From the NCBI GenBank assembly GCA_026708565.1, contig JAPOUR010000002.1, positions 1-49,130 on the forward strand: a stretch of DNA of 49,130 nt. Reading direction: 5' to 3'. The translations under genes and the position numbers were made by a program. The stretch's first letter is position 1, and the number at the start of each line of letters is the position of its first letter. This stretch comes from Candidatus Dadabacteria bacterium (GTDB lineage Bacteria; Desulfobacterota_D; UBA1144; Nemesobacterales; Mycalebacteriaceae). Of this stretch, positions 12,387 to 16,073 are shown piece by piece. Under the pieces are notes generated by a model, which searched no databases, was not told where the DNA came from, and was given only the letters and a program-made list of their open reading frames with translations.

Positions 12387-13147
12387 ATCGGCGTTCTGAA
12401 AACAGTCAGGGCTCCGACCCTCCCCGCCCCGGCGCGCAGGAGGGTTTTTGAGCACTCTTCAATGGTCGCGCCGGTTGTGAATATGTCGTCAAAAACAAGC
12501 ACGTCCCTTCCCTCCAGCTCACTGCGGCGGGAGGCCGCGACCCTGAACGCGCCGCGCACATTTCTCTTTCTGTCCCTCTTTCCGGGGAAAGACGCCTGCG
12601 GTGTCGTGTCCACAATCCTCTCCATTAAGAAGGGAGTGTGACTCCTTCCCGTTGCGGCGGCGACAGCCGAAGAGACAACGGCGGCCTGATTAAACTCCCT
12701 CTCGCGCAACCTTCTGGGATGCAGGGGAACGGGAATCATCAAGTCAAACCCGCGCAATTCCTCCGGAAACCTTTCAATAACGAGCGAGGAAAACAAACCG
12801 GCGAGCGACAAGTCGCCCGCATACTTGAAACGCTTGGCGGCGGTGGCGGCGGGCCCGGAAAAAACAACCACGGAGCGCGCCACGGAAAAATCCCTCCCGG
12901 AGAGGCACGCGCCGCAAACCACCCCCGCGCCGCCACCGGTCAGAAGGTTGCCGCACAGGTCGCACACCCCGCCGCCGGGAAGGTAGACAAAACCCTCCTC
13001 GCACCCCGCGCAAAGCCCGCTGCCGGAAGTCCCTCCGCATACGGGGCAGGACGGCGGAAAAAACAGAGAAACGGAAGCGCCGCAAGCGCGGCGCAGAAAG
13101 GCCGCCGCCGTTTTCAGAACCTTGGTTTTGACGGGCTCAGGAGACAA
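12383..13147 (-). CDS. comF: ComF family phosphoribosyltransferase-like protein
   Basis: A 254-residue ComF/GntX protein associated with DNA uptake and recombination of transforming DNA. Four CxxC-type motifs (CPVC, CAGC, CDLC, CGAC) form N-terminal zinc fingers. The C-terminal phosphoribosyltransferase-like domain ends with the PRPP-loop signature VLVFDDIFTTGATIEEC. The start is uncertain: TTG 13147 overlaps the end of dnaN and is the only candidate upstream of the first zinc finger. The gene is last in the dnaA-dnaN-comF set. comM lies just across the divergent promoter, so two competence-associated genes flank the replication genes. Confidence 0.9.
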   Translation of the reverse strand: MSPEPVKTKVLKTAAAFLRRACGASVSLFFPPSCPVCGGTSGSGLCAGCEEGFVYLPGGGVCDLCGNLLTGGGAGVVCGACLSGRDFSVARSVVVFSGPAATAAKRFKYAGDLSLAGLFSSLVIERFPEELRGFDLMIPVPLHPRRLREREFNQAAVVSSAVAAATGRSHTPFLMERIVDTTPQASFPGKRDRKRNVRGAFRVAASRRSELEGRDVLVFDDIFTTGATIEECSKTLLRAGAGRVGALTVFRTPI

Positions 13148-14270
13148 CCGGCATCAGGACACAGATAAAATCTTCCGACCCGGAGAGTTTCATCACCGAG
13201 GGGCCCTTGCCCCCTCCGGGATAAAACTCAACCTCATCCCCGTCAAGGAAGTTGAGGGAATCCGTAAGAAAAGCCGGATTGAAAGAAACATCCATGCGCG
13301 CTTCCTCCTTCAGTTCGCCTCCGGCGTAGGAAACGGTCTCGGTGGCCTCGCCGCTTGTTGTCTTGCCGCTTGAAACGGACACGGCGCTTTCTCCGAAACT
13401 CAAGTCAATTTTTTTGGGGTCGTCCGCGAATATGCCCACCCGCCTGACAGTTCCCTGCATGCCCGTCCGTCCGACAAGCACGAAATCCGCCGCCGCCAAG
13501 TCTGGAATAACGCGCGTGTATTCCGGAAACGGCATGTCAACCGGAGTTGATATTATGGTTGTGCCCCCGACAGTGAAAAACACCTTGCCGTTGCCGGAGG
13601 AAAAAGTGGCCTCCCGCTCCTCGTCCCTGTCGGAAAGGCGCAACACCTTTGCCATCTCAACCACGGCCTTTCTGGTTACCAGAAAACTTTCAAGATCACC
13701 GGAAAAATCAACCTTTCTCTGAAAATAGGCAAGCCGGTGGCTGTCAGTGGCGACAAACCTCAAACAGTCTCCCGCGCGCTCAAAAAGAACCCCGTTGATG
13801 TTGCGCCGGACCGCCTCATCCTCGGCGAAATTGAGGAGAGACTGCAAGGAAACGGAGATGGCGGACGGGGCAACGGAGAATGTTGCCGTCGCCGGGGCGG
13901 CGGGTATCTTGGGAAAGTCCTTGGCGGGGGAGCAGGGAAATTTGAAATTTGCCGACGGGGTGGTTATCTCCACCCAGTTGTTTTTGTGGATGTTTATTGA
14001 GACTTCTTCAACATCCATCTGCCTCACGATATCAAGAAACTTCTGCCCGGAGACCAGAAACTCAAAGTCCGCCGAAGGGCTTTCCTCCGGCGCGAAACGG
14101 CTGACAATGGTTGATTCCAGATCCGTGGCCGCGAGAAAGCACTCTTTCCTCTTTGCGGAACAGCGCACAAGCACATGTCTTAAAGTCTCGTTCGGAGAAT
14201 GGCTTTCAGTGAGCCCTATCACCACCGACATCTTTTCAATCAGGGCCTGTCTTTTGAAGGTTACTTCCAT
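13137..14270 (-). CDS. dnaN: DNA polymerase III beta subunit (sliding clamp)
   Basis: Ring-shaped processivity clamp that tethers polymerase III and other repair factors to DNA. Length is 377 residues, normal for DnaN. It is recognised from MEVTFKRQALIEKMSVV, the three-domain repeat pattern, ATDSHRLAY and the C-terminal ICVLMPVVS, which lies where the family has (V/L)MP(M/I)R. ATG 14270 is preceded by AAAGGTGG with good spacing; an upstream in-frame start would add three residues. The leader contains a perfect 7-base hairpin (14294-14312) and a TATAAT at 14331-14326. It is downstream of dnaA with the candidate origin in between. Confidence 0.96.
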   Translation of the reverse strand: MEVTFKRQALIEKMSVVIGLTESHSPNETLRHVLVRCSAKRKECFLAATDLESTIVSRFAPEESPSADFEFLVSGQKFLDIVRQMDVEEVSINIHKNNWVEITTPSANFKFPCSPAKDFPKIPAAPATATFSVAPSAISVSLQSLLNFAEDEAVRRNINGVLFERAGDCLRFVATDSHRLAYFQRKVDFSGDLESFLVTRKAVVEMAKVLRLSDRDEEREATFSSGNGKVFFTVGGTTIISTPVDMPFPEYTRVIPDLAAADFVLVGRTGMQGTVRRVGIFADDPKKIDLSFGESAVSVSSGKTTSGEATETVSYAGGELKEEARMDVSFNPAFLTDSLNFLDGDEVEFYPGGGKGPSVMKLSGSEDFICVLMPVVS

Positions 14271-14320
14271 TTTTTCCACCTTTGAAAATCTTCATCAGAG
14301 GGTTTCTCTGATACTAACGG

Positions 14321-14375
14321 TTTTTATTATACATAAATAAAACAGTAGTAGTAGGAAGTGTGGATTTGTTGATAA
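14321..14375 (-). other. DnaA boxes, DnaA-trio and AT-rich unwinding stretch
   Basis: On the minus strand: TTATCAACA (14375-14367, one mismatch to consensus) abuts AAATCCACA (14367-14359), then a 4-base spacer, then CTA CTA CTA CTG (14354-14343), then 22 bases that are all A/T except one (14342-14321). This order (boxes, trio, AT-rich) matches the basal unwinding system described for B. subtilis oriC. The TATAAT of dnaN lies within the AT-rich part. Confidence 0.7.
14326..14331 (-). promoter_or_regulatory. dnaN -10 element inside the AT-rich origin stretch
   Basis: Perfect TATAAT on the minus strand preceded by TG. The leader to dnaN would be about 50 bases and includes the hairpin ATCAGAG-N5-CTCTGAT (14294-14312) and AAAGGTGG. 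Confidence 0.5.
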
Positions 14376-14518
14376 GTGCCGCTATTCCTTCGGCTCATTG
14401 ATTTTTCCCTGTTGATTGTATGTTGACGCTGTTTGTTGAATCCGTTCCTCAACCGTGGAATGGTTGCCTCCGCCCGCCCTTTCTCCACAAACTCAACAAC
14501 GCTTTAAGACAATTTCAA

Positions 14519-14548
14519 CAGGAATTCCACACTACTGTGGAATTCCTG
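14519..14548 (-). repeat. Perfect inverted repeat directly after the dnaA stop
   Basis: Arms CAGGAATTCCACA and TGTGGAATTCCTG, 13 bases each, are perfectly complementary with a 4-base loop. The repeat starts at the base after the dnaA TGA. No clean U-run follows (TTGAAATTG), so it is a poor intrinsic terminator. The TCCACA ends also resemble DnaA-box cores. It may stabilise the dnaA mRNA end, reduce read-through, or bind DnaA. Confidence 0.7.
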
Positions 14549-15925
14549 TCACACATTCAGCCTGTCTTCAATCTCTTTTATTGCCGCCACTGTGGCCTGT
14601 TCTTTGTCCGCGAGGTTTTTCTCTATTTTTTCAGTTGAGTACAAGACGGTGGAGTGGTCACGCCCGTTGAACTGCCTGCCTATGTCAACGAGTGTTATTT
14701 CCAGATGCTTCTTCATGAGGAACATCGCTATTTGCCTCGGAAAGGCCACCACTTTGGATTTGTCCATTGAAACCAGATCCTTTTTCTTCACTCCAAAGAA
14801 GTCCACCACCGTAGCCTTTATCAACTCCGCTGTTATCTTGGGCTCCTTGGACTCCGTCCCCGTTCTTATTGCCGAGCCGTTGGAGTTGAAAAGGATGGCC
14901 GCCATTCTTATGTCTATGGGTTTTCCCTCCACCTGCGCCTGAATCACAAGTTTCAAGAGCGCGCCCTCAAGCTCCCTCACGTTGTTCTTCACCTTTTCGG
15001 AAACCATCTTTATCACGCCTTCCGGTATCTCAATGCTCATTTCCTCCGCCTTCTTTTTCACAATGGCGGCCCTTGTCTCAATATCCGGCGGCCTGATGTC
15101 GGCGCTTACTCCCCAGAGAAACCTGCTTTTAAGCCTTTCCTCAAAGTTGTCCATATCGTTGGGGAGTTTGTCGCTCGTGAGAACTATCTGCTTGCCGTCC
15201 TCATAGAGTGTGTTAAAGGTGTGGAAGAACTCGTTGATGGTGCTGTTTTTACCCTCAAGAAACTGTATGTCGTCTATCATCAGGAGGTCGCATTTTTTCC
15301 TGAGTTTCTGCCTGAGAAGGGAGGTGTTTTTTCCCTTGAGGTGGTCCACCACTATGTTTGTGAACTCTTCGGACGAAAGGCTGCAAATGTTCAGACCGGG
15401 GTTTCTCCTCGCAAACTCATTTCCTATGGCGTTCATCAGGTGGGTTTTTCCCAGACCTGAAGCTCCGGTTATGAAAAGCGGGTTGTGCTTGCCTGGATTC
15501 ACCGCGGCCCCCATGGCGGCCGCGAATGCGAACTCGTTGCTTTCACCCACTATGTAATTGTCAAAGGCGTATTTTGAGTTCAGGTAACCCATATACACCT
15601 CCCGTCTTTCGTTTTCCGATTTCGGGGGCAGAACGAGCTTCTTTCCGGCAGACCCGTTGTCGCAGTTTACTATCTCCACCCGCTCCACGCCGTGGAACTT
15701 GCTGAAGTATTCGGTTATCTCGCTGAGTGTGTTTCCGAGGTTGCTCTTGAGATAGTTGACATCCATCTCGCTTCCCGGGGTTATCTCCACAAATCCCCCG
15801 TCCCTGTCAAGAGCGGATACGCGCGACCGGGACAAAAGTTCCAGCATGTCTCCCGGAATATTGCTTCCCTGCCTCACATGGGCGAGAAGCATACTCCAAA
15901 CCTGATCCAGGTTCTCTCTTTGCAT
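14549..15925 (-). CDS. dnaA: Chromosomal replication initiator protein
   Basis: AAA+ ATPase that binds DnaA boxes, melts the origin and loads the helicase. The 458-residue product has domain I from MQRENLDQVWSMLLAHVRQG, a short linker, and the AAA+ domain with Walker A GASGLGKTHL, Walker B LLMIDDIQFLEGK and sensor FEERLKSRFLWG. Domain IV has VDIGRQFNGRDHSTVLYSTEKI, the standard box-reading helix-turn-helix. That standard motif implies boxes close to TTATCCACA. ATG 15925 follows GGCAGGAATA; an upstream in-frame start is not needed. Divergent from comM. Confidence 0.97.
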   Translation of the reverse strand: MQRENLDQVWSMLLAHVRQGSNIPGDMLELLSRSRVSALDRDGGFVEITPGSEMDVNYLKSNLGNTLSEITEYFSKFHGVERVEIVNCDNGSAGKKLVLPPKSENERREVYMGYLNSKYAFDNYIVGESNEFAFAAAMGAAVNPGKHNPLFITGASGLGKTHLMNAIGNEFARRNPGLNICSLSSEEFTNIVVDHLKGKNTSLLRQKLRKKCDLLMIDDIQFLEGKNSTINEFFHTFNTLYEDGKQIVLTSDKLPNDMDNFEERLKSRFLWGVSADIRPPDIETRAAIVKKKAEEMSIEIPEGVIKMVSEKVKNNVRELEGALLKLVIQAQVEGKPIDIRMAAILFNSNGSAIRTGTESKEPKITAELIKATVVDFFGVKKKDLVSMDKSKVVAFPRQIAMFLMKKHLEITLVDIGRQFNGRDHSTVLYSTEKIEKNLADKEQATVAAIKEIEDRLNV

Positions 15926-16009
15926 TATTCCTGCCGGGAAAGGGAAACCCGCCACGCGAGCGGAAAACTCAAAATCGGGGGAAACCCCTCACCCAACCTC
16001 ACCGCCCGC

Positions 16010-16065
16010 ATTCTAAACGGCGAAGTCCGAAGTTGTCAAACGGGGAGCGAAAATTGGTATACAAT
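16010..16065. promoter_or_regulatory. Overlapping divergent promoters of dnaA and comM
   Basis: Minus strand: TTGACA (16039-16034), 18-base spacer, TAGAAT (16015-16010), a strong dnaA promoter with a leader of about 78 bases. Plus strand: TACAAT (16060-16065) lies 8 bases before the comM ATG, predicting a leaderless comM mRNA. TTGTCAA at 16033-16039 serves the dnaA -35, so the two promoters share DNA and may compete. Confidence 0.65.
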
Positions 16066-16073
16066 ACCGCCTC

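Follow-up and report, generated by a model that had tools for sequence, protein, structure and literature searches.

The window, by which we mean the whole stretch of 49,130 bases analysed here, carries dnaA and dnaN on its minus strand, both scoring above their curated cut-offs, as the neighbours on either side of a 277-bp gap (14272-14548; Table 1). The gap is bounded by the dnaA stop codon (14549-14551) and by the dnaN ATG at 14271. The dnaA reading frame can be extended to a GTG at 15955; the ATG at 15925, which is preceded by AGGAAT, is more likely to be the start. The coding strands of the window's own contig diverge at 15,254. On the minus strand, going from dnaA to dnaN, the gap contains in order a hairpin, a DnaA box facing the opposite way, three TCAACA cores, two tandem boxes, CTTC, CTACTACTACTG and an AT-rich stretch. 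The hairpin (-24.5 kcal/mol, z -5.5) has no other copy in the genome at up to 2 mismatches and is absent from the congener G001. The repeat may be a hairpin, a terminator (without a clear T-run) or a pair of weak DnaA boxes facing each other.

Table 1. Features of the dnaA-dnaN region, listed in minus-strand order; distances are given from the counterpart of B. subtilis box 6
Feature	Position	Strand	Remarks
dnaA, replication initiator	14549..15925	minus	TIGR00362, 416.7 bits (cut-off 343.9)
Inverted repeat, perfect 13-bp, TTCCACA in each arm	14519..14548	minus	directly after the dnaA stop
Opposite-facing DnaA box TTCTCCACA, 1 mismatch	14481..14489	plus	114 bp from box 6
Weak distal box GATTCAACA	14434..14442	minus	67 bp upstream of box 6
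Weak distal box GCGTCAACA	14421..14429	minus	54 bp upstream of box 6
Weak distal box CAATCAACA	14410..14418	minus	43 bp upstream of box 6
BUS upstream DnaA box TTATCAACA	14367..14375	minus	counterpart of B. subtilis box 6
BUS downstream DnaA box AAATCCACA	14359..14367	minus	counterpart of box 7
4-bp spacer CTTC, boxes to trios	14355..14358	minus	4 bp is usual in the order
DnaA-trios CTACTACTACTG	14343..14354	minus	complement is repeated 3'-GAT-5'
AT-rich unwinding element TTTTATTTATGTATAATAAAAA	14321..14342	minus	22 bases with a single G/C
dnaN, sliding clamp	13137..14271	minus	TIGR00663, 159.9 bits (cut-off 137.65)

A basal unwinding system (BUS) is defined by at least three NAN trios no more than 16 bp from a DnaA box (PMC8287927). 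We found four trios, the last of which is CTG, 4 bp from AAATCCACA, with the AT-rich stretch straight after them. The tandem boxes (TTATCAACA/AATCCACA) lie 8 bp apart and have base 14367 in common. BUS boxes are usually tandem with the upstream one nearer TTATCCACA; the boxes are tandem here as well, but the single mismatch of the upstream box to TTATNCACA, an A for C at position 6, falls on a conserved position, and the downstream box has 2 mismatches to the consensus. Among all 22-bp stretches of the 49,130 bases, the one at 14321-14342 has the lowest nearest-neighbour stability, and the AT-rich stretch is the least stable of the window at 30 and 50 bp too. Within it, TTTATGTATAATAAAAA is identical in both congeners, which exceeds what an AT-rich melting stretch requires, and possibly doubles as the -10 element of a dnaN promoter.

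When the 1.57-Mb draft genome was searched for a box core followed by 2-14 bp and CTACTACT, one convincing site was found; the only other match, on contig C5, has a long spacer and was judged to be due to chance. With a spacer of exactly 4 bp there was 1 match in the genome and 0 in the reversed control, and CTACTACTA occurs a single time in the 133.7-kb contig. Because the box and trio arrangement is unique in the genome at this spacing, we conclude that it is not a chance arrangement. The layout given in a preliminary description of the locus (boxes, a 4-base spacer, trios and 22 nearly pure A/T bases on the minus strand) is borne out by our reading and by the single genome match, and the TCAACA cores that it placed 11 and 13 bases apart are real (14410-14415, 14421-14426 and 14434-14439).

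The three parts looked for in a BUS-type DnaA (arginine finger, single-strand-binding positions and box-binding helix-turn-helix) were found by aligning the protein end to end with the B. subtilis DnaA seen in 8btg, a structure of the BUS. The arginine finger R264 is kept within RLKSRF, the single-strand-binding (ISM) positions I190 and I193 are occupied by V and L, and the motif in domain IV is GRDHSTV, where B. subtilis has GRDHTTV. Judging from its sequence, this DnaA is expected to read canonical boxes, and the TCAACA sites are therefore probably weaker.

The same gap in relatives had been proposed as a check, and there we found the boxes, trios and AT-rich stretch kept. Trios and an AT-rich stretch lie downstream of dnaA in every relative with a readable gap, in both orders of the phylum, and the trios are at the dnaA-dnaN gap in seven families of the order and in a second order. 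Families f2 to f7 and the second order (f8) have trios and AT-rich DNA after dnaA, and the BUS is therefore phylum-wide here. In G001 it reads TTATCCACAAATCCACA-CCCC-CTACTACTACGACTACTA-TATTTTTATGTATAATAAAAA, with TTATCCACA as the upstream box and a downstream box identical to that of the window, while the boxes of the many-species genus f6g6 are a tandem ATTTCAC/TTTTCACA. Leftward TGTGGA boxes occur in relatives in the same part of the gap as the opposite-facing box of the window. Many relatives have 5-8 trios; with fewer trios and the C6 to A change of its upstream box, the BUS of the window reads as a mildly worn, slightly degenerate copy.

The skew analysis covered the window's contig and G001, a single-contig congener (1,162,547 bp, linear or circular). 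In G001, where dnaA lies at 200.2-201.6 kb, three skews (GC, AT and keto) and the switch of coding strand all turn no more than about 12 kb from the gene: the detrended GC skew has its minimum at 188.9 kb (maximum at 680 kb), the AT skew its maximum at 191.9 kb and the keto walk its minimum at 191.8 kb, and the strand switch is at 200.9 kb. The range of the GC walk is greater than in all 5,000 shuffles of 5-kb blocks; the third-position skew reaches its minimum 32 kb away, and the purine walk indicates a different place. For the window's contig, GC skew as a whole is lowest at 86.9 kb and the third-position skew has a peak, not a bottom, at 14.0 kb; the local skew therefore gives no support for an origin. 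Cumulative GC skew, which the preliminary description had also named as a check, speaks for an origin at dnaA in G001 but lends no support on the window's own contig, which has no clean minimum at the gap.

We found that the positions of the weak distal boxes, which in the window are box-like in the TCAACA core only (9-mers with 3-4 mismatches), follow a fixed spacing. In most of the order, weak boxes facing the same way lie upstream of the first BUS box by 43, 54-55, 66-67 or 78 bp between centres. The cores of most families are at 43 and 55 and those of genus f3g9 at 54 and 66; one f3g9 genome, with a spacer 12 bp longer, has its cores at 66 and 78. The distances are 43, 54 and 67 in the window and 55, 66 and 78 in G001. 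The best period over 31 positions is 11.7 bp (vector strength 0.985), equalled by 0 of 5,000 random block shifts, in a test that shared ancestry makes generous and that used a list of core variants made after the sequences had been viewed. Between families, identity is 0.42 in the spacer and 0.70-0.86 in the cores, with the spacer length fixed. The earlier remark that the boxes share one helical phase is, given this period and the conservation of the cores, better supported than its author knew. Where f6g6 has a box resembling TTATRAACA, it is found 60-61 bp away from the downstream box.

Likewise, 8 of 8 Bacillota origins (L121-L126, L129 and L131), read from records filed as plasmids and with the BUS boxes named individually, have a forward-facing box 42-45 or 53-56 bp away: Listeria (45 and 56), Paenibacillus (44 and 55), Priestia (42 and 53), Acetoanaerobium (55), C. 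difficile (44), S. epidermidis (44), Latilactobacillus (43) and Aerococcus (44 and 55). When six Bacillota origins were shuffled, the chance of such a distal box was 0.7-2.1% each. Left out were the Paenibacillus cellulositrophicus and Monoglobus "plasmid" dnaA records, which have no dnaN after dnaA, and those of Subdoligranulum and Vescimonas, in which no BUS was assigned confidently. Several PLSDB "plasmid" records (L121, L123, L124 and others; for example NZ_CP154629, NZ_CP030101 and NZ_CP054613) contain a chromosomal dnaA together with a BUS origin and are apparently chromosomes, or pieces of chromosomes, filed in the wrong place. In E. coli, R1 and R5M are 55 bp apart, as measured on a query that thousands of E. 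coli chromosomes match exactly.

We consider it unlikely that the upstream TCAACA boxes are not DnaA sites and that their fixed spacing has been inherited without constraint. At fixed length the cores have an identity of 0.70-0.81 and the spacer one of 0.42, register shifts occur in steps of 11-12 bp, and the same positions are occupied in the eight Bacillota origins and, according to mutation analysis, functional in B. subtilis (44 bp, then one turn apart). The window does retain the 6-base core only, f2 and f6g13 have no core from the variant list at these distances, and no distal core was seen by eye in f8. We put at about even the chance that BUS-type origins carry a further conserved element, namely a same-direction distal box (often two, one turn apart) at a fixed distance of some 43-44 or 54-55 bp to the first BUS box regardless of the intervening sequence, with E. 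coli R1-R5M as the same element. Such a shared spacing is stated nowhere in the literature searched, which lacked most subscription journals. What is new here is that, in several bacterial groups, the distal boxes stand at a constant distance from the opening site; the rest of the origin is of a known kind.

We are highly confident that the dnaA-dnaN gap is the chromosomal replication origin (oriC), acting by the BUS mechanism proposed below together with its distal boxes, and it is almost certainly an ordinary, standard BUS on the Bacillus plan in this bacterium. Most of the checks named with the earlier claim of a chromosome origin, among those that were run, favoured it, and the claim is supported by the boxes, trios and AT-rich DNA kept in relatives and by the G001 skews (about 189-192 kb) and strand switch at dnaA. 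Against the origin reading stands the alteration of the window's upstream box at a conserved position, though B. subtilis depends on the upstream box most. The true origin might lie elsewhere, with the gap only regulating dnaA and dnaN, for example through DnaA autoregulation or a dnaN promoter. The poor local skew of the window's contig agrees with this, as does the TATAAT within the AT-rich stretch, common to the congener; a promoter, however, would not require the box, trio and AT order that is kept phylum-wide, and we set TATAAT as a mere promoter aside because the order of boxes and trios is conserved. G001 has in addition a denser box-like cluster, 11 sites within 300 bp at 287.9-288.1 kb, which was rejected as an alternative origin because the skews, like the strand switch, turn at dnaA and not at 288 kb; no trios lie beside it in the stretch read. 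An origin elsewhere is on this evidence very unlikely. A bipartite origin of the B. subtilis type, in which another cluster of boxes upstream of dnaA cooperates with the gap, is also very unlikely: Bacillota and H. pylori do have such origins (PMC7561715), but we found no second cluster in the 148-bp gap upstream of dnaA (15926-16073), which holds no TTATCCACA site at up to 2 mismatches on either strand.

Two box clusters away from dnaA were also observed. The one in G001 (287,868-288,285, locus L051), with 11 box-like sites per 300 bp at up to 1 mismatch, is about 88 kb from dnaA, is denser than the origin itself and could titrate DnaA. The other is a TCCACA core cluster of five forward sites and one reverse site (L033:4391-4474, contig C2 53521-53604), a possible DnaA-titrating or regulatory site.

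In B. subtilis, DnaA boxes and trios direct opening, and this mechanism is of wide occurrence (PMC6669920, PMC8287927). By analogy, at the origin proposed here DnaA would bind the two overlapping boxes at 14359-14375, from which a DnaA-ATP filament would extend onto the trios at 14343-14354 and grip the strand 3'-GATGATGATGAC-5'. The filament would stretch the gripped strand and melt the adjacent AT-rich DNA at 14321-14342, where the helicase would be loaded. The weak same-direction boxes (43, 54 and 67 bp from box 6, one turn apart) and the opposite box may store DnaA on the same face of the helix, from where it would be delivered to the trios, probably via looping.

Our results place a standard Bacillus-type origin, kept phylum-wide, in a little-studied phylum. 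The rule for the spacing, observed among natural origins of at least two phyla, agrees with B. subtilis origins that were engineered; with it, the proposed distal-box loop can be tested in other species, and origin finders gain a second criterion, based on spacing.

A BUS has been predicted in 85% of 2,070 species (PMC8287927). The window resembles B. subtilis incC in its dnaA-dnaN gap, two boxes facing trios, 3'-GAT-5' trios and AT-rich stretch, and in having a separate group of distal boxes, which in B. subtilis lies at about 44 and 55 bp (PMC6669920); in B. subtilis the distal box must be no nearer to box 6 than 44 bp, where native box 3 lies, and works on one helix face over three turns (PMC6669920). 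It differs from B. subtilis in its upstream box, TTATCAACA and not the consensus, in having four trios and, B. subtilis being bipartite, in the box cluster that was not found upstream of dnaA. The Bacillus-like order claimed in the preliminary description is matched by real Bacillota origins, such as that of Listeria (TTATCCACAAATCCACA-GCGC-CTATTACTATTACTAC), which shares the layout of TTATCNACAAATCCACA, 4 bp and trios as well as the distal forward boxes. The Bacillota boxes are stronger than those of the window, and in Latilactobacillus and Aerococcus the second box is 9 bp, not 8 bp, from the first. E. coli differs in that oriC is not beside dnaA and IHF bending is used, and the trios reported for it are only putative (PMC13220808). 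The left half of E. coli oriC (R1, R5M, tau2, I1 and I2) is nevertheless alike in having a box adjoining the unwinding element and weak same-facing boxes, the first of them 55 bp from R1, with the same-facing sites beyond R5M exactly 2 bp apart (PMC4451416).
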